A model generated the notes under the pieces. That model was not told where the DNA came from and did no database searches. It worked only from the letters and a program-made list of their open reading frames with translations. A program made the translations under genes and the position numbers. From Candidatus Hydrogenedentota bacterium (GTDB lineage: Bacteria > Hydrogenedentota > Hydrogenedentia > Hydrogenedentales > SLHB01), in contig JAIBAQ010000030.1 in assembly GCA_019695095.1 (NCBI GenBank), forward strand, positions 1 to 42,630: a stretch of DNA of 42,630 nucleotides, given 5' to 3'. Shown in pieces: positions 5,158 to 14,584 of this stretch. Numbering within the stretch: position 1 is the stretch's first letter; each line of letters begins with the position of its first letter.

Positions 5158-6411
5158 ATGTCAAGAAAGAACATGCAATCTTCACGGAGTATGAATTTTG
5201 GCCGGTACGACTATGCCGCATTTCTGACATTTTTCACGTATGCAGCGGGTTCTGTCGTGATTCCCGTCGTGCTTGTTCAGTTGGCACGCGACCTGGGTTT
5301 CTCTTTGGAGACGGGCGGGATGAGCGCGGGCGGAGCCCTTCATCTGGGCCGTACGATTCCGATGGTGGCATCGATGCTGGTGTGCGGTTTTGCGGCAGGC
5401 CGCTGGGGGGTGAAGCGCTCCCTGGGATGGTCGGTGCTGCTGATGGCGTGTGGAATGGGCCTGTGTGCGCTGTCCCCCATGTATGGAATGCTCTTTGCCG
5501 CGCTCATGGTGGCAGGCATCGGTGAAGGAGTCATCGAAGGTTTGGCGACGCCGCTGGTGCAGGAACAGCATCCTGAGGAACCTGGCCGGTACATAAACTT
5601 CTCGCACGGATTCTGGTCCGTTGGCGTCCTGACCACCGTTCTCGTCTCGGGGGTGTTGTTATCCCTGGGCGTGTCGTGGAGAGTGCATACGGGTTGTGTG
5701 GCGCTTCTTGGTTTGTTCCCTGCGCTTCTGCTACTGCTTCCTGAATCGCGAGCGGCGGAGAATAAAGAGTCAATCGAGCCTCTTCACTGGAGGACGACGT
5801 GGAATCACGCCTACGCTATTTGCCGCACGCCGCGGTTCTGGTTGTTCTTTGCCGCGATGTTTGTAGCGGGAGGTGGAGAATTCTGCCTTACATTCTGGTG
5901 CGCCAGCTACATTCAACTGAATTTCACCACAGCCGCGTGGGCGGGCGGCGTCGGCACCGCGTTCTTCGCCGGAGGAATGGTGATAGGCAGAACGGGGTGG
6001 GGCTACCTCATCCAACAACGCCATCTGAAGCAGTTGGTGTTGTACTCGGCCATTGCCGGCGCCGGGATAACGCTGTTTATGCCTGCGGTCACTAATTTGT
6101 GGTTGTTCTTTGGGATGGTCTTTCTTGCGGGGCTTGCGTCAGCCCCTTTCTGGCCCAGCCTGCAAAGCCATTGTGCGGATCGTTTGCACGAAAGCGACAC
6201 GACGATGCTATTCATCCTCCTCTCATGCGCAGGCGTCCCTGGGTGCGGGTTCTTCACGTGGCTGATGGGAGTCGTCGGCAATCACAGTGGACTTGGCACA
6301 GCCTTCTATCTCGTGCCCGCGTGTTATGTGGTCTTGGCACTGCTGACGGCGTTCGATGGGAGCCGTGCTGCGGTGTATCTCAACCTTGCCAACGAAACAG
6401 CAAATGAATGA
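5158..6411 (+). CDS. Major facilitator superfamily transporter
   Basis: 417 aa from ATG 5158; ATG 5173, with a purine-rich stretch before it, is equally possible. The frame is open further upstream but that part is not membrane-like. About 12 hydrophobic segments are visible, beginning with YDYAAFLTFFTYAAGSVVIP. The loop after TM2 carries GRWGVKRSLGW, the usual MFS motif A position with basic residues, and a related loop follows TM8 (GRTGWGYLIQQRHLKQ). The overall look resembles sugar-type MFS proteins such as the FucP group, but no substrate can be assigned. It stands alone on the plus strand, convergent with the metal transporter genes. Confidence 0.82.
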   Translation: MSRKNMQSSRSMNFGRYDYAAFLTFFTYAAGSVVIPVVLVQLARDLGFSLETGGMSAGGALHLGRTIPMVASMLVCGFAAGRWGVKRSLGWSVLLMACGMGLCALSPMYGMLFAALMVAGIGEGVIEGLATPLVQEQHPEEPGRYINFSHGFWSVGVLTTVLVSGVLLSLGVSWRVHTGCVALLGLFPALLLLLPESRAAENKESIEPLHWRTTWNHAYAICRTPRFWLFFAAMFVAGGGEFCLTFWCASYIQLNFTTAAWAGGVGTAFFAGGMVIGRTGWGYLIQQRHLKQLVLYSAIAGAGITLFMPAVTNLWLFFGMVFLAGLASAPFWPSLQSHCADRLHESDTTMLFILLSCAGVPGCGFFTWLMGVVGNHSGLGTAFYLVPACYVVLALLTAFDGSRAAVYLNLANETANE

Positions 6412-6443
6412 AGGTGCGCTGACCCACAATATGCGCTGGCGAA

Positions 6444-7355
6444 CTAAGCGCCGGCGGCCGGGAGTTCCGGCGCTATACCTCGAATTGCGCGGCGCCGCGC
6501 AAAGTACTTCGGAATAGCTCCGTGCGCGGGTGAGAAAAGTGCCGCGAGGACGAAGAGCAACCCGCTGACCACCGAGATGGCACCTGCCGTCGAACCGTCG
6601 AGCCATGCCGCGAGAAAGTATCCGCCGACGGAACTGGCCATGCCGACCAGAACCGAAAGAACGAGCATGCGCGAAAGACGGTCGGTCAACAGATAGGCCG
6701 TGTTGGGTGGAACGACAAGGAGTGCGACGACGAGGATGGCGCCAACGCTCTCGAAGGCTCCCACCGTCGTCAAAGAGACGAAACCCATGAGCAGGTAATG
6801 CCATAGGGAAACGTTGATGCCAATGGCTGCCGCGAGCGCCGGGTCGAATGCGCAGAGCTTGAGTTGGCGGTACCCCAGCGTGATGAATGCCACGTTGGCA
6901 ATGGCAATCGCTCCCAGTATCCATGCCGCGCGCGGTCCGATCGGAGTGTCACCCATGAAAACCACGTTAAGCGGCGCGTTTTCGATTTCGCCGTAGAGCA
7001 CGCATTCGGCATCCAAGTCGACTTGCCCCGCGAATGCGGATACGAGAATGACTCCGATGGCAAAGAGCCACGTGAACGTCACGCCCATCGACGCGTCCGA
7101 CTGCAATTTGCCATGGCGCTCTAGAGCGTTCGTCAGGAAGGCCGTAATCAGCCCGAGGGCTCCGGCGCCCACGAGCATGGGCAGCGTATTCCGGCTGCCC
7201 GTAAGGAGAAACGCGATTACAATGCCGGGCAAGACGCTGTGACTGATGGCGTCGCCCATCATCGCTTGCCGCTGCAAAACGAGAAAGCAGCCCACCAGCG
7301 CGCAGGATGCGGAGGCTAGGCACCCAATGAGGACAATCCACATGCCGATCGTCAT
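6444..7355 (-). CDS. Metal ABC transporter permease, ABC-3 family (second permease)
   Basis: 303 aa, about eight hydrophobic segments. It has the ABC-3 family hallmarks: QRQAMMGDAISHSVLPG near residues 29-45 (coupling to the ATPase and start of the pore helix) and AFESVGAILVVALLVVPPNTAYLL near 210-235. The start ATG overlaps the stop of the preceding permease as ATGA, so the two are translationally coupled. It is the last gene of the four-gene importer and lacks the extra C-terminal domain of its sister. TroC/TroD-like pairs form a heterodimeric channel for Mn, Zn or Fe in the inner membrane; that the two pair here is inferred from family knowledge. Confidence 0.88.
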   Translation of the reverse strand: MTIGMWIVLIGCLASASCALVGCFLVLQRQAMMGDAISHSVLPGIVIAFLLTGSRNTLPMLVGAGALGLITAFLTNALERHGKLQSDASMGVTFTWLFAIGVILVSAFAGQVDLDAECVLYGEIENAPLNVVFMGDTPIGPRAAWILGAIAIANVAFITLGYRQLKLCAFDPALAAAIGINVSLWHYLLMGFVSLTTVGAFESVGAILVVALLVVPPNTAYLLTDRLSRMLVLSVLVGMASSVGGYFLAAWLDGSTAGAISVVSGLLFVLAALFSPAHGAIPKYFARRRAIRGIAPELPAAGA

Positions 7356-8689
7356 AGCGATACCTGCTTGGCGATGTCCTCGCTTGCACGCGCCGGGATA
7401 TGGCTCGCGTGTGGGTCGGCATCGGGGTTGTCGAGCGCGGCGATAAGGCGCGCTTCCAGTTCCGGAGTGATGATGTGTTCGATCTCGTCGGCGTCGTCGT
7501 GCACATGGTCTGGCGCGAGGTCGAGCTTACGCGTCAGATACAGTTCCCATAGCCTGTGGATACGCGTGAGATGCGCGGCGCGTTCAATACCGGCCTCTGT
7601 CAGCGAATATCGTCCCTGGAGCGATTCCTCCACGAGGCCCTGGTCGATGAGCAATGCCAAGGTGCGGTCCATGGCGTGCAACGTCATCGGGCGATGTTTG
7701 AGCAAGTCCGCGAGCGTGCGCGCCGCATTCACGCGCTGTTCCTTTTCGCCCAGCACGTATAGCGTCCGAACGACATTCTCCATAGCCGTTCGCTTGCGCG
7801 TATTCCGCAGTTGCAGTATGCGCGCGAATACGCCGCGGCGCGGCGCGAAGAGCAGCGAAAGGAGAAACAGGCTCGTAATGCTGACCACCATCCACGGACC
7901 GGTCGGCATGCGCGGTCCCAGGTAAGATACATAGGCCCCGATAGCGCCGCTGGCGGCGCCGAAGGCCCCGGCCAGCACCAGCATCGTGCTGAGCCGATGT
8001 GTCCAGTACCGCGCGGCGGCGGCGGGGGTCACGAGCATGGCGGCCATGAGCACGACGCCTACGGCTTGAAGGCCAATCGCAACCGCCAACACGATCAGCG
8101 TGGCCAGGAGGGTTTCGATGAAGCGCGAGGGAACACCCGCCGTACGTGCGTATTGCGGGTCGAAGGAGACGACCTTGAATTCCTTATACGCAAGCGCCAC
8201 GGTCCCGAGGAGCAACACCGACAGGATGCCAAACGTCCATACGTCGCGATGGAGCATTGCCGCGGCTTGCCCAAAGAGAAAGCGGTTCAGTCCCGATTGT
8301 GCGGCGTTGCCGCTGCGCTGAATATACGTGAGAAGCAGAATCCCGACCCCGAAGTAGACGGACAGGACCATTCCGAGGGCGCTGTCTTCCTTGCAACGGG
8401 TGTGGCGGACGATCAGGTCGATGGATAGGGCCGCCAGCCAGCAGGCCAGCGTGGCGCCCACGAGAATCACGATGGGTTCCTTCGTGCCGGTGAGAAGGAA
8501 CGCGGCACACACGCCGGGAAGGGCCGCATGCGCAAGCGCATCGCCCATGAGCGACCGTTTGCGGAGAAACGCAAAACACCCGATGACGCCGGCCGTCAGT
8601 CCGAGCAGCACGCATCCGATGAACACCAGCCGCGCGTTCGCGCTGGAAAACGTGAAGAACTCCAGCCAGGGGGGAAGCGGCGCATTCAT
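7352..8689 (-). CDS. Metal ABC permease fused to a DtxR/MntR-like metal-sensor domain
   Basis: 445 aa from ATG 8689, which overlaps the ATPase stop as ATGA; an in-frame ATG at 8704 is less likely. Residues about 15-285 are an ABC-3 permease with FLRKRSLMGDALAHAALPG and VGVVLMAAMLVTPAAAARY. A basic linker (about 285-300) leads to a winged-helix segment (about 302-370, ending GLVEESLQGRYSLTEAGIERA). A DtxR-like dimerisation/metal domain follows (about 371-432): A..L.RIHRLWE.YL, DDADEIEH, ending NPDADPHASHIP. His378, Asp401, Glu404 and His405 occupy the places of MntR metal ligands. The tail is predicted to be cytoplasmic and may sense the imported metal. Similar fusions occur in some other bacteria by my recollection. 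Confidence 0.87.
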   Translation of the reverse strand: MNAPLPPWLEFFTFSSANARLVFIGCVLLGLTAGVIGCFAFLRKRSLMGDALAHAALPGVCAAFLLTGTKEPIVILVGATLACWLAALSIDLIVRHTRCKEDSALGMVLSVYFGVGILLLTYIQRSGNAAQSGLNRFLFGQAAAMLHRDVWTFGILSVLLLGTVALAYKEFKVVSFDPQYARTAGVPSRFIETLLATLIVLAVAIGLQAVGVVLMAAMLVTPAAAARYWTHRLSTMLVLAGAFGAASGAIGAYVSYLGPRMPTGPWMVVSITSLFLLSLLFAPRRGVFARILQLRNTRKRTAMENVVRTLYVLGEKEQRVNAARTLADLLKHRPMTLHAMDRTLALLIDQGLVEESLQGRYSLTEAGIERAAHLTRIHRLWELYLTRKLDLAPDHVHDDADEIEHIITPELEARLIAALDNPDADPHASHIPARASEDIAKQVSL

Positions 8690-9474
8690 TGGCGCGCTTT
8701 CCATTCCTGACGGCGGAGCTTTTCGCCGACCTCCGTGAGGAGGTTGAGACGTCCGCCGTAGGTTTTGTTCAGATTCTCAGGCGTGAATACGGTCTGTACG
8801 TCTCCGAAGGCGATCATCCGCAGATTGATAAGCAGCACCGAATCGAAGTATTCGGGGACTGTCTGTAGATCGTGATGGACCACGACGACCGTGCTTCCCT
8901 GCGCGCGCAATTCACGCAGTAGCTCTACGATAGCTTTCTCGGTGGCGGCATCGACGCCCGCAAACGGTTCGTCCATGAGATAGACCTGAGTCTGTTGGGC
9001 CAGGGCGCGCGCAAGGAAGACCCGTTGTTGCTGCCCGCCCGACAGCTGGCTGATCTGACGGTTCGCCAAGTCGGCCATGCCCACTTTCTCCAGGCAGTTC
9101 TTGGCAATTTCGTAATCGCGCTTGCGGGGCCGGCCAAACAGAGGAAGATGCCCGTAACGTCCCATGAGTACTACGTCGAGGGCGGTCGTGGGGAAGTCCC
9201 AATCCACGGATTCGCGCTGCGGGACATACGCGACGAGACGCCTGCCCTGATGAATGGGCATGCCGAAAATCTGCACGCGGCCCGACGCCAATGGAACGAG
9301 GCCCAGCACGGCCTTGATCAACGTGCTTTTGCCCGCACCGTTTGGCCCGACCACGGCGATGAGCTTCCCTTCCGGGAAGGCCACGTCGATATCCCATAGC
9401 ACGGGGCGGTGTTGATACGCGACGGTTAAGTCGTGAACGTCGATTGGAGGTGCGGTTATAACCGGGGTAGTCAT
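8686..9474 (-). CDS. Metal ABC transporter ATP-binding protein (ZnuC/MntA/TroB type)
   Basis: 262 aa. Walker A GPNGAGKST at 43-51, Q-loop in AYVPQRESVDWDFP near 82-95, signature LSGGQQQR at 144-151, Walker B VYLMDEP at 164-170 and the switch His in VVVVHHDL. The QRESVDWDFPTT stretch is characteristic of Mn/Zn/Fe importers. The start ATG lies 2 nt past the stop of the binding-protein gene, and the stop overlaps the next permease start, so order and spacing fit one operon. It powers uptake through the two permeases on the inner face of the membrane. Confidence 0.93.
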   Translation of the reverse strand: MTTPVITAPPIDVHDLTVAYQHRPVLWDIDVAFPEGKLIAVVGPNGAGKSTLIKAVLGLVPLASGRVQIFGMPIHQGRRLVAYVPQRESVDWDFPTTALDVVLMGRYGHLPLFGRPRKRDYEIAKNCLEKVGMADLANRQISQLSGGQQQRVFLARALAQQTQVYLMDEPFAGVDAATEKAIVELLRELRAQGSTVVVVHHDLQTVPEYFDSVLLINLRMIAFGDVQTVFTPENLNKTYGGRLNLLTEVGEKLRRQEWKARQ

Positions 9475-9476
9475 GA

Positions 9477-10460
9477 CTAACGCAAAGCCTTTACGATAGT
9501 GTCGATGTTGTAACGGACCATGCCGATATACGTGCCTTCTGGTGAGCCAGCCTCCCCCATGGCGTCACTGAATAGCTGGCCGCCAATCGTCACGGAACCG
9601 TCGTGGGATTTTACTTCGTTAACGAGAACTTCTATGGATCGTTGCGGCACCGACGATTCCACGAAGACGGCCTTGATGCCGCGCGATGCGATAAGCTCCG
9701 CCAGCCGGGCCACATCCTGCGTGCCGAATTCGGCGGTCGTGCTGATTCCCTGGAGTCCCTTGACTTCGATGTCGTACGCGCGCCCGAAGTAGCCGAATGC
9801 GTCGTGCGCGGTAACCAGCACGCGCTGTTCTTTGGGTATTGTGGCTATCTGTTCGCGCGCATACGCGTCGAGTTGACGCAACTGCTCGATGTACGCGGCC
9901 GCATTCTTTTCGAACTCGGGCTTATGCGCGGGATCGACCGCCACCATTGCGTCGCGAATTCGTTCCGCCACGTGAATCCACAAGCCAACATCGAACCACA
10001 CATGAGGGTCGTGCTGGCCTTGAAACTCCGGAGGATTCCGCAGACTGTCCTGCGGGATGCTGTCCGTCACCGCTACCGTGGATACGGTTCGCGCAAGCTT
10101 CTCAAGGACTTCGATCATCTTGCCTTCGAGGTGCAGGCCATTGTAGAGGATCAAGTCCGCCTCGGTGAGTTTCTGGATGTCTCCCTGGGAGGCTTTGTAG
10201 AGGTGGGGGTCGACACCCGGCCCCATAAGACCCGTCACTTCAACCCATTCACCGCCAATATTCTTGGCCGTGTCGGCAATCATACCGGTCGTGGTTGTGA
10301 CTTTCATGGTGCCACCATGCGACTTCTGACGCAGGGAACCTGACGGAGCCTCGTGGGCAGCAGGGGAGCCGCCGCATCCGGCCGCGAAGGCGACAAGTAC
10401 GGAGAGCAGGGCAATCGAACCCATGGCCCTGCGGAGATTTGTGGACATTGTGTCGCTCAT
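9477..10460 (-). CDS. Metal ABC transporter substrate-binding lipoprotein (TroA/ZnuA-like)
   Basis: 327 aa. A lipoprotein signal ends in AFAAGC with Cys29, so it is membrane-tethered. The cluster A-I metal-binding protein pattern is visible: VDPHLYKAS (His86), HDPHVWFDV (His153), TAHDAFGYF (His219) and LFSDAMG (Asp299). The spacing and the H-H-H-D set match TroA-type Mn/Zn proteins rather than the H-H-E-D set of PsaA/MntC. There is no His-rich loop as in many ZnuA proteins. AAGGA lies 9 nt before the ATG; an ATG four codons further on could also be used. Metal identity (Mn, Zn or Fe) is not settled by sequence. Confidence 0.92.
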   Translation of the reverse strand: MSDTMSTNLRRAMGSIALLSVLVAFAAGCGGSPAAHEAPSGSLRQKSHGGTMKVTTTTGMIADTAKNIGGEWVEVTGLMGPGVDPHLYKASQGDIQKLTEADLILYNGLHLEGKMIEVLEKLARTVSTVAVTDSIPQDSLRNPPEFQGQHDPHVWFDVGLWIHVAERIRDAMVAVDPAHKPEFEKNAAAYIEQLRQLDAYAREQIATIPKEQRVLVTAHDAFGYFGRAYDIEVKGLQGISTTAEFGTQDVARLAELIASRGIKAVFVESSVPQRSIEVLVNEVKSHDGSVTIGGQLFSDAMGEAGSPEGTYIGMVRYNIDTIVKALR

Positions 10461-10927: not shown

Positions 10928-12220
10928 CTACAGCACAACCTTTTCCGGCCACAGGTTGCGTTTCGACGCGCCCCACAGTTTATTGATGTATTCGATGGAT
11001 AAGACGTCTTCCCATGCGTGGAGCCAAAAGGAACCCCTGTCCGACAGGACAATCTGGTCGCCGTACTCGCGAAGGAATCCGAGGACTCTGAAAAGTCGCA
11101 GATACGACCCAAATGCAGTCTCAATATCCTCGCCAAAACGGTCAAAATAGGCGCTTCGGGTGAAGCGGGTTTCATAGATCCGCCAGTACAGCCATCCGGC
11201 CTGCTGCATCCGTTCGGACAGTTCCAAAGACAGCGCGATGGCTGTCTCGCGCTCATCCATGGCTTTAATGTACTCGGCGACGCCGAAGGTGTTCAGATAA
11301 AACAGGTCGGTAAGATAGGTACCTCCGCTCGCACCCAAACCGATATACAAGGGCACAGTCACCGAGCAGTACCGGGGTACGCCGCGTTTCGTAAACGCCC
11401 AGACGGAACTACGCTCATATCCGGCTTGGTAGAAAATCTTCTCCAAGATGGCCAGCATGCGCCGTCGCTTCAAGCTTAAAAACATGCCATGATTCTTGAG
11501 GCTGCCGTTTTGTCCTAAAGGAGTGTAAGAGAATCGGAACAGCGGATAGGCAGCCACCTGATCGACACCCAAATCCACGACCCGGTACCCCAACTCTTCG
11601 ATTTCCCGGTACGTCTGTTCCGGTAACGCAAACATCACGTCCACATTGACGCAGTCGAATCCTTGCGATACCGCACGGCGCACGGCCGCTTTGACTTCTT
11701 CCACGGTGTAGGGTCGCTGCAAGAGCTTGAGGTGCCTGTCTACAAGCGATTCCACGCCAATGCTGAGGTGCCTCACCCCCATGGCCTTGAGCTCGTCCAG
11801 ATTGTCGGAACTCAGGTGGTTGGGATGACTCTCCATGTGAATGCCGCACTGAAGATTGATGCCGTTGCGCAGGTGTCCGATTAGGTCAACAAGACCGGTG
11901 CGAAGCATTGTTGTGGGAGTACCGCCGCCGATATACAGCGACGTGACCGGCTTGCCATCTAGGAGTTCGCCATAGGAGTCAATCTCCTTCTTTACGGCGC
12001 GAACGTACTCTTTCGCAAGACCGTCCCGGTATATTTCCTTATTGTACGGGCAATACGGACATATCCGCTCGCAAAACGGGACATGCACGTAGATGCCAAG
12101 TGAATGGATCTTGTCGAATTTCTCATGGAGTTCGTCACGCGACGGGGCCCGTTTCCTGAGTAGAATTTGCCGTTCGCCGGTCAAACACTTGAGAAGCGTT
12201 TGTCGAAGGAGACGTTCCAT
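10928..12220 (-). CDS. HemW/HemN-like radical SAM protein
   Basis: 430 aa from ATG 12220, which has GGGAGA 6 nt upstream; the GTG ten codons earlier lacks a ribosome site. Radical SAM motif Cys50-x3-Cys54-x2-Cys57 in VPFCERICPYCPY, followed by YIGGGTPTT (about 97-104) that binds SAM, SIGVES (beta4) and NVDVMFALPEQT, all as in the coproporphyrinogen dehydrogenase/HemW family. The C-terminal 100 residues look like a HemN_C-type helical/winged part. Real HemN adds an N-terminal motif not seen here, so a haem chaperone or an unrelated SAM reaction is more likely. It lies 33 bp downstream of another radical SAM gene, and the two probably work together. Confidence 0.82.
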   Translation of the reverse strand: MERLLRQTLLKCLTGERQILLRKRAPSRDELHEKFDKIHSLGIYVHVPFCERICPYCPYNKEIYRDGLAKEYVRAVKKEIDSYGELLDGKPVTSLYIGGGTPTTMLRTGLVDLIGHLRNGINLQCGIHMESHPNHLSSDNLDELKAMGVRHLSIGVESLVDRHLKLLQRPYTVEEVKAAVRRAVSQGFDCVNVDVMFALPEQTYREIEELGYRVVDLGVDQVAAYPLFRFSYTPLGQNGSLKNHGMFLSLKRRRMLAILEKIFYQAGYERSSVWAFTKRGVPRYCSVTVPLYIGLGASGGTYLTDLFYLNTFGVAEYIKAMDERETAIALSLELSERMQQAGWLYWRIYETRFTRSAYFDRFGEDIETAFGSYLRLFRVLGFLREYGDQIVLSDRGSFWLHAWEDVLSIEYINKLWGASKRNLWPEKVVL

Positions 12221-12253
12221 GACTTTCTCCCTTACCGGCCAAGCGGCCACCCG

Positions 12254-13132
12254 TCAGAAGTATTTGAGCGCGTTAAGAATCGCCGACGGCTTCATTTTCA
12301 GAGTCTGATCGATTTCGGCGTAACTGAGATATCCGCAATCTCGACACAACTCGGCATTGCCCGAAAAACGACAGCATTGGTAAATGGTGCCTTTCTCATA
12401 GACGGAACAGATATTCAGCGGACGCCGCCAGTCGTCTCTGAGCGCCGAAAGCAATCCAGCGCGAGAGTTCAATATCCGGTATCGTTTGCGAAGTCTAAGA
12501 AGTTCTTGCAGGATTTGGCCCTTTTCAGCGCGGTCAATAACGAGGTCGTCGTACCCGTAGTAGGGTGTATGAAAGTAAAAGAACACCCCGCGTATGGCGT
12601 TGATGCCTCGCACGTATTCGCAAAACGCAATTATCTCATTCTTGTTGCGGCTGTTGATTGTGTAGTTGATGAACAGGGACGGATGCTGCGATTCCTGAAT
12701 GTTTCTGAAAATGCGGTCGAAAGATCTGCCGCGCAGGGCATCATGTATCTCTCGAAGGCCGTCGACGCTCACGAAAACGGTGTCGGCAGCGGTCCGGATA
12801 GGCAGTGTGCCGTTCGTGTAAATGACAACCGTCAGAAACCCGACTTGATGCGCGTAATCCACGACCTCGTTGATGCCGTGCTCCCCGTCATGCCAAAGAA
12901 ATGGCTCGCCGCCTTCCAGATACAGACAACGGCCACCTTCACGATGGAAGTCGTCGATCGCTGCAACAACGTCCGTGAAGTCCAAATCTCGGTGGCCACG
13001 TTCGTGTACTCGGCAATGTGCGCATCGCAAGTTGCAGCGGTTCGTCAGAACCAGTCCGCGTATCAACGGTGGGCTCCGCTGGGAAAGGACACGTCCGGCA
13101 ACAAATCGCAGTCCGTACCACGCGGCGTTCAT
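12254..13132 (-). CDS. Radical SAM protein with C-terminal Cys cluster (SPASM-like)
   Basis: 292 aa from ATG 13132 (GGGG 5 nt upstream). Motif Cys33-x3-Cys37-x2-Cys40 in TNRCNLRCAHC, then LEGGEPFLW (SAM-binding GGE) and VSVDG. The C-terminus has several Cys (ICSVYEKGTIYQCCRF, ELCRDCGYL) that may bind a second FeS cluster. The frame continues up to a TTG at 13246. A strong AAGGAG near 13192 stands before an ATG at 13184 that is in another frame, so the true N-terminus, or a frameshift, is unresolved. First gene of the radical SAM pair. The reaction is unknown; related proteins modify peptides or act in cofactor synthesis. Confidence 0.8.
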   Translation of the reverse strand: MNAAWYGLRFVAGRVLSQRSPPLIRGLVLTNRCNLRCAHCRVHERGHRDLDFTDVVAAIDDFHREGGRCLYLEGGEPFLWHDGEHGINEVVDYAHQVGFLTVVIYTNGTLPIRTAADTVFVSVDGLREIHDALRGRSFDRIFRNIQESQHPSLFINYTINSRNKNEIIAFCEYVRGINAIRGVFFYFHTPYYGYDDLVIDRAEKGQILQELLRLRKRYRILNSRAGLLSALRDDWRRPLNICSVYEKGTIYQCCRFSGNAELCRDCGYLSYAEIDQTLKMKPSAILNALKYF

Positions 13133-13279
13133 AAATGCCCCTACATTGGAAACGTATCGTTCCCGAGAATTCCTCCCCGTCCATAATAGCACTCCTTGTG
13201 GTGCAATCTTATTTAAATCTAGTGTTCGACGTGCTGCCTGTGTCAAAGAGTAGGGCTTTTCGACCTCTATTCCTGAGCG

Positions 13280-13325
13280 GAAATAAAGAGGAAATAGAAA
13301 TAAATAGAAATAAAGGAGGGAAATA
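13280..13325. repeat. Purine-rich tract with five GAAATA copies
   Basis: GAAATA occurs at 13280, 13291, 13297, 13307 and 13320 in an otherwise A/G-rich plus strand. It lies upstream of the radical SAM pair and directly beside the stop of the transposase-like remnant. It could be a slipped-strand low-complexity tract or part of a promoter for the minus-strand genes. Confidence 0.5.
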
Positions 13326-13330
13326 ACAGA

Positions 13331-13606
13331 CTACGAATTGTCGCCTTTTTTTCCGCTGTCGGGCGGTTTTCGCTTCCTGCCGCGCTGGCCCGGCTTGAGG
13401 TTGTGGCTAAGGATGGCTTCGATCCGCGTGAGGAACTGCGGGCGCGCCGCACGGTCTGCCCGTGTAGGTCCGTCGCCGGATACGGGTGACGTCATCCTCG
13501 TCGTCCTTCGTGGCTTGGGGATCGGGACAGACCCGTCTTCAATACGTTTCGCATGGGTCAGTCCCTCAGACCCGGCTCCACTGCGATTCGCTTGTGTCAG
13601 TCCCGC
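13331..13606 (-). pseudogene. Remnant of a REP-associated tyrosine transposase (RAYT/IS200-like), C-terminal end
   Basis: A minus-strand frame from a TAG (13607-13609) to a TAG (13331-13333) encodes QFLTRIEAILSHNLKPGQRG followed by RKRK near its end. The adjoining frame encodes TRIRRRTYTGRPCG just before it. Joined across a frame change, these resemble the TGRPlG...fi..lE..l.r.l.p.k.GRk.k ending of RAYT proteins. No start codon, catalytic His pair or Tyr region is left. Inverted REP-like motifs lie inside the same stretch, the usual company of RAYT genes. I infer a decayed, frameshifted element; the call rests on about 60 residues and remembered family patterns. Confidence 0.42.
13524..13604. 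repeat. REP-like hairpin and direct repeat in the RAYT remnant
   Basis: GGGACAGACCC (13524-13534) and GGGTCAGTCCC (13555-13565) form an 11-bp stem with one mismatch and a 20-nt loop. The 21-bp right half, 13545-13565, is repeated at 13584-13604 with 18 of 21 bases identical. Such closely spaced palindromic units accompany RAYT genes. Confidence 0.55.
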
Positions 13607-13739
13607 CTACGCTAGAACCCAGTCGTCAATAACCCCTTTTGCATACCACTCATTCGATAGTACTGAATCGGTACGCAATCCGCAATGGGCCGTAGCATCA
13701 GGGCAATCGAACCAAAAGTTGAGCAAAAACACCCACACC

Positions 13740-13825
13740 GTCATTCCCGCGCAAGCGGGAATCCATCTTCGTATTGAAAAGGCGCCCAATCCGTGAAGAT
13801 GGACCCCCGCTTTCGCGGGGGAGAC
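13740..13825. repeat. Inverted pair of a dispersed palindromic repeat
   Basis: A 31-bp unit (13740-13770) recurs in inverted orientation at 13795-13825 with 25 of 31 bases matching. Each unit is itself a small palindrome around CCCGCG-NAAGCGGG. Units of this CATTCCCGCG(A/C)AAGCGGG kind are widely dispersed in bacterial genomes and are REP-like; a BIME-style doublet is the likely reading. Confidence 0.65.
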
Positions 13826-13928
13826 GAAAGAGCAGATTATCCAAGTAGTCGAAATCCAAAGCGATTTTAGTGCGATTGCCCTTACCGCAAGATCGTTCAG
13901 CAGACCAGCCGTTCTCAGAGAGTCATTC

Positions 13929-14030
13929 GACAGGATTGACACGATTCACAAGATGGAGATCCAGTGGTAGCCGACCAGACTTCGGTCTGTCAACTCCGAT
14001 CTTCATCGTGTTAATCCTGCAAATCCTGTC
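13929..14030. repeat. 102-bp inverted-repeat element with inner UUCG hairpin
   Basis: The left end begins GACAGGATTgacaCGATTCAC and the right end is the reverse complement of GACAGGATTTGCAGGATTAA followed by CACGATGAAGAT, so both ends share GACAGGATT, ACGAT and GAGAT/GAAGAT blocks in inverted order. At the centre, 13976-13989 forms CAGAC-TTCG-GTCTG, a UUCG tetraloop hairpin. Similar GACAGGATT-ended repeats are scattered in many environmental genomes, by my recollection. Confidence 0.55.
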
Positions 14031-14344
14031 CATACGAATTGCGGTTAGAACCCAGTCCCCAATCTCGGCGTGATCCGGTCGCTCCTCGCCTCACCGCGTT
14101 CCCAGTGCAACGAACTTGCTCCTATATATGAGGGGTATCAAACGAAAGGTAGAACCATGTCCGCCGGCATTTGCGCCGGTTGCGTCGCCCGGACGGCTTG
14201 CGCGAGTGACCATTCTTCCGGGGCGACCCCCTTGCCCCGTCAAATTGCGCGGAGGGGGGTGTCCCCCGGCGGAGTCACGGGAAGTGCCCGAGACTTCTCA
14301 CTGGGTTCTCAGAGTAACAAGAGAAGTGGAGACCTTACGGTCGC

Positions 14345-14438
14345 CTGCCGACAAGTATGTCGGCGGAGTGGTCCGCCGCGGCAGATCAGGAGACTCCGCC
14401 ACAACAAGGCCCGGCTGCCGACAAGTATGTCTGCGGAG
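14345..14438. repeat. Direct repeat of a small hairpin unit
   Basis: A 24-bp unit at 14345-14368 recurs at 14415-14438 with one base changed, 70 bp apart. The first copy contains GCCGACA-AGTA-TGTCGGC, a perfect 7-bp stem; the second has one mismatch. Two copies only, so it is not a CRISPR array. Confidence 0.55.
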
Positions 14439-14479
14439 ACCGGGCGCTACGAAATGCATCCCGAGGGTTTTCGTCTTCC

Positions 14480-14558
14480 GTGTGGCAGGCATCTTGCCTG
14501 CCTCTTAATTGGGGACAGGAAGTCCCCGCCGGGGAGGCAGGCAGGATGCCTGCCACAC
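14480..14558. repeat. 25-bp inverted repeat (GGCAGGCAT type) flanking a GGGGAC hairpin
   Basis: Arms 14480-14504 and 14534-14558 are reverse complements with 24 of 25 bases matching. The 29-bp interval contains GGGGAC-AGGAA-GTCCCC. The element ends 26 bp from the stop of the minus-strand LamG gene and could act as its transcription terminator. The arm resembles a dispersed repeat (GTGGCAGGCATCYTGCCTGCC) seen in several phyla. Confidence 0.65.
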
Positions 14559-14584
14559 CTTTTGGTGCAACCCGAGTGCGACGG

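Follow-up and report, generated by a model that had tools for sequence, protein, structure and literature searches.

A conserved pair of radical SAM genes from Candidatus Hydrogenedentota that probably makes an undescribed modified molecule

The gene pair and its start sites

The window, that is, the whole stretch of 42,630 nucleotides analyzed here, contained two adjacent genes encoding radical SAM enzymes, designated r1 and r2 (Table 1). The two frames and the 33 bp that separate them were present as described in the first-pass annotation, which had also taken an AAGGAG preceding the ATG at 13184, in another frame than r1, as a hint of a frameshift, a small leader peptide, or an overlapping peptide substrate. 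The motif was indeed found 7 nt ahead of this ATG. The pattern AAGGAG-N4-10-ATG occurred five times in the window versus 1.57 expected in shuffled sequences, with five reached in 3 of 100 shuffles, and two of the five sites were located inside r2, one on each strand. The site at 13184 is no strong signal.

Table 1. Positions of the radical SAM genes and of the frames around them in the window
Feature	Position	Strand	Description
r1	12254..13132	-	radical SAM enzyme, 292 aa; ATG 13132, TGA 12256-12254
r2	10928..12220	-	HemN-like radical SAM enzyme, 430 aa; ATG 12220, stop codon end 10928
r1-r2 spacer	12221..12253	-	33 nt, GGGAG stretch ahead of r2 start
81-codon frame from ATG 13184	12939..13184	-	judged non-gene
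upstream in-frame extension of r1 to TTG 13246	13133..13246	-	judged outside protein

Orthologue starts were listed for 30 of the 45 loci obtained by a genome scan, and 28 of these were compared, with the omission of two loci (L018 and L026) whose start was not anchored at Met39. An ATG was present at the position of 13132 in 25 of the 28 r1 orthologues. The alternative frame from 13184 was interrupted by stops in all 28, and none of them had a start codon at that position. In the genome-scan loci, r1 matches mostly started near residue 39 of the longest frame (330 aa), which corresponds to Met 13132, and in most loci the match began at residue 32 or later. Additionally, the 81-aa frame had no family match in Pfam or NCBIfam. 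Among 1246 short ORFs within 1.2 kb on each side of 29 pairs, no conserved precursor gene of a ribosomally synthesized, modified peptide (RiPP) was identified; the short ORFs that recurred coincided with larger genes in a different frame or on the other strand (positions read by eye) and look like shadows of these genes. The frame broken in 28 of 28 orthologues and the ATG at 13132 in 25 speak against a frameshift or a leader peptide at 13184, and an overlapping peptide substrate is likewise not supported, with no short ORF conserved around the 29 pairs. Orthologues start at the equivalent of 13132, with no conservation of the upstream ORF, and the odd gene start that drew attention to the pair is ordinary.

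Upstream of r1, positions 13133-14584 of the window comprised 1.4 kb with no evident gene and three long inverted repeats (13739-13826, 13929-14030, and 14480-14558). Among the fetched loci, the patterns of two of these repeats were found only in two loci holding the same stretch.

Sequence and predicted structure of the two proteins

The r1 protein matched the Pfam family PF04055 (Radical_SAM) with 60.1 bits against a cut-off of 29.5 (E 3.8e-16, for the 330-aa longest frame). It carries the CxxxCxxC motif at residues 33, 37, and 40, and a further set of cysteines toward the C-terminus (C242-x10-C253, C254-x8-C263-x2-C266-GY). In an alignment of the window protein with those of 34 of the 45 loci, C33, C37, C40, C242, C253, C263, and C266 were invariant in 35 of 35 rows and C254 was kept in 34. 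The C-terminal spacing in the window, C-x5-G-x4-C followed by CxxC, was compared with what we take to be the Twitch consensus (SPASM/Twitch auxiliary cluster), and from these cysteines we infer a putative auxiliary iron-sulfur cluster on four C-terminal residues. The predicted model of r1 (pLDDT 88) gave anSMEcpe, SkfB, BlsE, and SuiB as its best Foldseek matches, and also resembled MoaA and viperin.

The r2 protein also matched PF04055, with 78.4 bits against the same cut-off of 29.5 (E 9.2e-22, first residue omitted), and the cysteines of the radical SAM cluster were invariant in 33 of 33 aligned rows, which represent the window and 32 of the 45 loci (22 core and 11 divergent rows). Among the NCBIfam matches listed, the best was PRK08629 (176 bits, below the cut-off of 355), a model that we take to contain MenK-like proteins. 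The protein scored as HemN-like, and the HemW model TIGR00539 ranked third (134.4 bits, below the cut-off of 205.4). The sub-threshold TIGR00539 score weakens a role as HemW. None of the NCBIfam models among the matches listed named r1 or r2 above its cut-off. Many of the models matched by r2 are named coproporphyrinogen oxidase, a label that HemN-like proteins with no exact model tend to receive. For r2 the label would mislead, because HemB was not detected in 36 of 46 genomes carrying the pair or r1 and because its gene is linked to that of another radical SAM enzyme.

The nearest PDB sequences to r2 were HemN (1olt) and the class C methylase NocN (9p2u). NocN residues that bind two SAM molecules, including a tyrosine stacking on the second SAM, are given in a preprint (PMC12871812), and we mapped them by hand onto the HMMER alignment of r2. 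The equivalents of NocN Y34 (HemN Y56), Y96, R171, and D196 were invariant in 33 of 33 rows, and those of R153 and the catalytic Y276 were found in 0 of 33 each. Class C enzymes use two SAM molecules to move one carbon to sp2 carbons, according to PMC12871812 and PMC9692996. The conserved residues suggest that r2 is likely to bind two SAM molecules. Methylation by r2 can only be a guess, because the equivalents of R153 and Y276 are absent.

Linkage, distribution, and neighboring genes

The first-pass annotation had noted that paired SAM enzymes of this kind often make unknown cofactors or modified peptides, and had named unlinked genes in other genomes as part of what would refute it. In the genome scan, r2 adjoined r1 in 42 of 45 loci from more than ten phyla, in either order; in three of these (L011, L016, and L029) the pair is incomplete or interrupted close to a contig end. 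Two of the other three loci (L034 and L054) were cut by contig ends with no r2 beside r1, and r2 fragments were found on other contigs of the same genomes. The third (L042) had r1 with no r2, and the sole r2-type match of its genome (G132) was a HemW of 308 bits; this genome is 1.2 Mb long and may be incomplete. Among 29 complete core pairs, the order was r1-r2 in 26 and r2-r1 in three, the two genes being 7 to 720 nt apart. Thus, r1 and r2 form a conserved unit that is linked in nearly all loci, and with this linkage and no NCBIfam name above cut-off among the matches listed, the idea of an unknown product stands: the pair probably makes an undescribed modified molecule. In a full-text literature search by family names and general terms, in which the pair is nameless and few subscription papers are covered, no description of it was found.

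As a separate observation on L042, which belongs to a Caldisericum bin, the stretch 5316-7639 holds r1 and, next to it, a flavoprotein whose nearest match is the geranylgeranyl reductase family (127 bits, cut-off 159).

Within the phylum, r1 was matched in 6 of 68 genomes. In a set of 386 genomes it was matched in 14, of which, judging by the loci inspected, six had the pair (G000, the genome of the window, and G007, G014, G025, G065, and G421), one (G021) was cut short, and seven carried a more distant sister type, for which the fetched stretches, some of them stopping close to r1, showed no adjacent r2. G000 belongs to the same family as G007. The counts for the 68 and 386 genomes overlap with those for the 46 carrier genomes (the 45 loci plus G000), since G100, G102, and G130 appear, from matching contig numbers and positions, to be identical to G007, G025, and G065. 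All 46 carrier genomes matched the r2 alignment profile at 1e-10, which says little because HemW-type proteins match it too.

Pairwise distances of r1 and r2 were correlated (r 0.83 for 22 core pairs and 0.93 for all 33; 0 of 5000 permutations as high), a result that fits partnership, common descent, and block transfer equally well. Quick trees of the two proteins were similar, with the four Hydrogenedentes rows together and the Neomarinimicrobiota row L036 among Bacteroidota; the trees are consistent with, and no proof of, transfer of the whole unit.

A START-fold gene of approximately 190 aa was part of the unit in 15 loci, placed between r1 and r2 in 14 of them (including L029, where r2 is cut off, and L050, where the order is reversed) and following r1 at the end of a contig in one (L034). 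In a profile search, START matches were found in 16 of the 46 carrier genomes, namely the 15 whose unit includes a copy and G110, whose unit (L020) retains a decayed remnant, and in none of the remaining 30, G000 included. Extra copies were located elsewhere in G104 and G140. The predicted model of the L014 START protein (pLDDT 88) had the START/Bet v 1 helix-grip fold, with TTHA0849 as the top PDB match (E 3.2e-8) among 338 matches at E ≤ 0.001; the best 50 of these 338 include TTHA0849, aromatase/cyclases, PYR/PYL, and START proteins. None of four members scanned matched a Pfam family above cut-off. The START proteins begin with a hydrophobic stretch that seems to be a putative signal peptide or N-terminal leader. 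The remnant in L020 fills the gap between r1 and r2 (7945-8105; L108) and has an internal stop.

Additionally, a gene for a short-chain dehydrogenase/reductase (SDR) was found upstream of r1 in 9 of the 45 loci (L016, L020, L024, L027, and L033-L037); further SDRs from this cluster, in L031 and L032, are outside this count. The SDR of L033, the single upstream one compared with NCBIfam, was closest to mycolate reductase (195 bits, cut-off 380), an enzyme that reduces a beta-keto lipid. Neither a START nor an SDR gene was present near the pair in the window, and both may be extras of certain lineages.

A connection of the pair with the downstream genes of a metal ABC transporter (6444-10460) was not supported: by inspection, the ORF lists of the three Hydrogenedentes relatives L010, L012, and L040 showed other neighbors in the stretches examined. 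In L042, L048, and L051, ATPase genes at a distance of 2 to 4 kb from the pair did cluster with the ABC ATPase of the window; we tentatively take them for other transporter types. Several further features of these surroundings were recorded. A single frame in the window (7352-8704, reverse strand) combined a metal ABC permease (PF00950) with a C-terminal iron-dependent-repressor dimerization domain (PF02742), both above cut-off. A serine/threonine kinase gene was located 5.4 kb from the pair in the window, and genes that cluster with it (identified by clustering and by eye) were found near the pair in L012, L018, L025, and L048, one of them overlapping the r1 start in L018. In L051 (5514-10858) and L052 (1-5224), the pair was flanked by fragments of one cluster, Rhs-like by eye, that have a repeated N-terminal stretch in common.

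Candidate substrates and comparison with known systems

The carrier genomes are mostly drafts, so that absences of marker genes are soft. Ten of the 46 genomes had a HemB, and none was detected in G000, G108, or G115. The menaquinone markers PF02621 (10 of 46) and MenB above cut-off (7 of 46, G000 included) did not overlap and together covered 17 of 46 genomes; the remaining 29 lacked both, including G108 and G115, whose pair-bearing records are chromosomes of 4.35 and 4.13 Mb. These results argue against heme or menaquinone as a general substrate, because HemB is found in only 10 and a menaquinone marker in only 17 of the 46 genomes. MenB-type matches below cut-off in 18 more carrier genomes were taken for crotonase relatives. 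Hopene-cyclase matches of any score were found in 10 of 46 genomes, and those above 400 bits in just five, G000 included, which speaks against a hopanoid as the general substrate. One HemN-family protein of G000 (G000:C50, L062) reads by eye as a true HemN, in a genome with no detected HemB.

UbiA was present in 41 of 46 carrier genomes and equally in 14 of 14 control genomes, and is therefore uninformative as a substrate clue. Twenty stretches were fetched for UbiA typing (19 UbiA and one r2-like), and ten were classified (nine UbiA and one r2-like). Two of the nine typed UbiA proteins (L135 and L141) were MenA-like above the TIGR00751 cut-off, and four (L129, L130, L133, and L140) were closest to archaeal-type ether-lipid prenyltransferases, below cut-off. 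The genomes of the two MenA-like proteins (G131 for L135 and G115 for L141) had neither PF02621 nor MenB above cut-off. An archaeal-type ether-lipid pathway has been reported to be encoded by FCB-group bacteria (PMC7852524). A prenyl or quinone substrate is possible, given the MenB and hopene cyclase of G000, the typed UbiA set, and the FCB report. In G000 itself, a quinone or a hopanoid is possible; the lipid clues stem from other genomes.

Our tentative reading, which we hold to be somewhat short of probable, is that r1 and r2 form a two-enzyme cassette for C1 transfer that acts on a lipid-like molecule, with both reaction and substrate putative. Together, the two proteins would carry out a single biosynthetic step or a short pathway dependent on low oxygen, in which r1, with a putative auxiliary iron-sulfur cluster on four cysteines, would act on the molecule in a second radical reaction. 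This substrate would most likely be hydrophobic and lipid-like, and neither heme nor, in general, menaquinone. Where present, the START protein would bind or carry it, and the upstream SDR, at nine loci, would supply a reduction.

Alternatively, r2 might be a quinone methyltransferase of the MenK/MqnK kind with r1 as its helper, so that the pair would make an unusual methylated quinone. The ranking of PRK08629 first among the matches listed for r2, MenB above cut-off in G000, and the two MenA-like UbiA proteins agree with this idea. Six menaquinone methyltransferase motifs of Wilkens et al. are tabulated in PMC10320005. All 22 core r2 rows and 8 of the 11 divergent ones had the strict motif NxFxxxxY; QxTxYPL was seen in 10 of the 11 divergent rows (0 of 22 core), and loosened forms of three others in nearly all rows. 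However, four of the six strict motifs were absent from all 33 rows, the loosened first, third, and fourth motifs were also present in the HemW-like control L061, and 29 of 46 carriers lack both menaquinone markers; we consider such a quinone unlikely.

Modification of a macromolecule of all cells, such as a tRNA, an rRNA, or a protein residue, would explain why no tested small-molecule marker was common to the carriers, as a universal substrate predicts; the patchy distribution (6 of 68 phylum genomes) and the START neighbor fit poorly with it and make it decidedly unlikely. Modification or handling of a tetrapyrrole, as by HemN, HemW, ChuW, or NirJ/AhbC, seems very improbable: both proteins distantly match heme-related families, yet all of these scores among the matches listed are below cut-off, HemB has the limited distribution given above, and G000 has two other HemN-family proteins (L061 and L062). 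Maturation of a ribosomal peptide encoded nearby is barely credible, in spite of the resemblance of the r1 model to the peptide maturases SkfB and SuiB and the sulfatase maturase anSMEcpe, and of a thiopeptide enzyme among the class C methylases, since no conserved short ORF was found within 1.2 kb of 29 pairs and the frame at 13184 is not conserved.

The lipid-directed cassette can be extended to a wider picture, which we regard as doubtful as a whole, in which a mobile cassette of two radical SAM enzymes, joined in some lineages by an exported START carrier and an SDR resembling beta-keto-lipid reductases, would build a prenyl compound or membrane lipid never described so far, its hosts being bacteria, for the most part uncultured, from over ten phyla. 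We rate as the new element the HemN-like, putatively two-SAM chemistry that relies on another radical SAM enzyme as its dedicated partner. If such two-enzyme chemistry holds, it would represent a new partner type for class C radical methylases and provide a genetic handle on an undescribed molecule common to many uncultured bacteria.

Several known systems resemble the pair in part. The PTO1314 family (TIGR03961) was the best NCBIfam match of r1, although the score of 70 bits is below the cut-off of 306, as is the 147 bits of L120, an unpaired sister of r1. The STM4012 family (NF006067) matched r2 with 154 bits, below the cut-off of 380; STM4012 presumably adjoins another radical SAM gene, STM4011, and no STM4011 family was among the best 25 of 50 NCBIfam matches of r1. 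HemW shares the HemN-family match of r2, at 134 bits against a cut-off of 205, and differs in that G000 encodes a separate protein (L061) with a HemW-like NxxYW sequence, a motif taken from PMC10320005. The likeness of r2 to MenK, MenK2, and MqnK comprises one of six strict motifs across the core rows and a second in most divergent rows, whereas the other four motifs, and the menaquinone markers in most carriers, are missing. Finally, r2 keeps the SAM I residues of the class C methylases NosN/NocN, TbtI, and C10P together with the tyrosine stacking on SAM II, and differs from NocN in the loss of the Y276 and R153 equivalents. C10P works with a second enzyme, C10Q, as described in PMC6050322, much as r2 would with its partner, but C10Q is a methyltransferase, whereas r1 is a second radical SAM enzyme.
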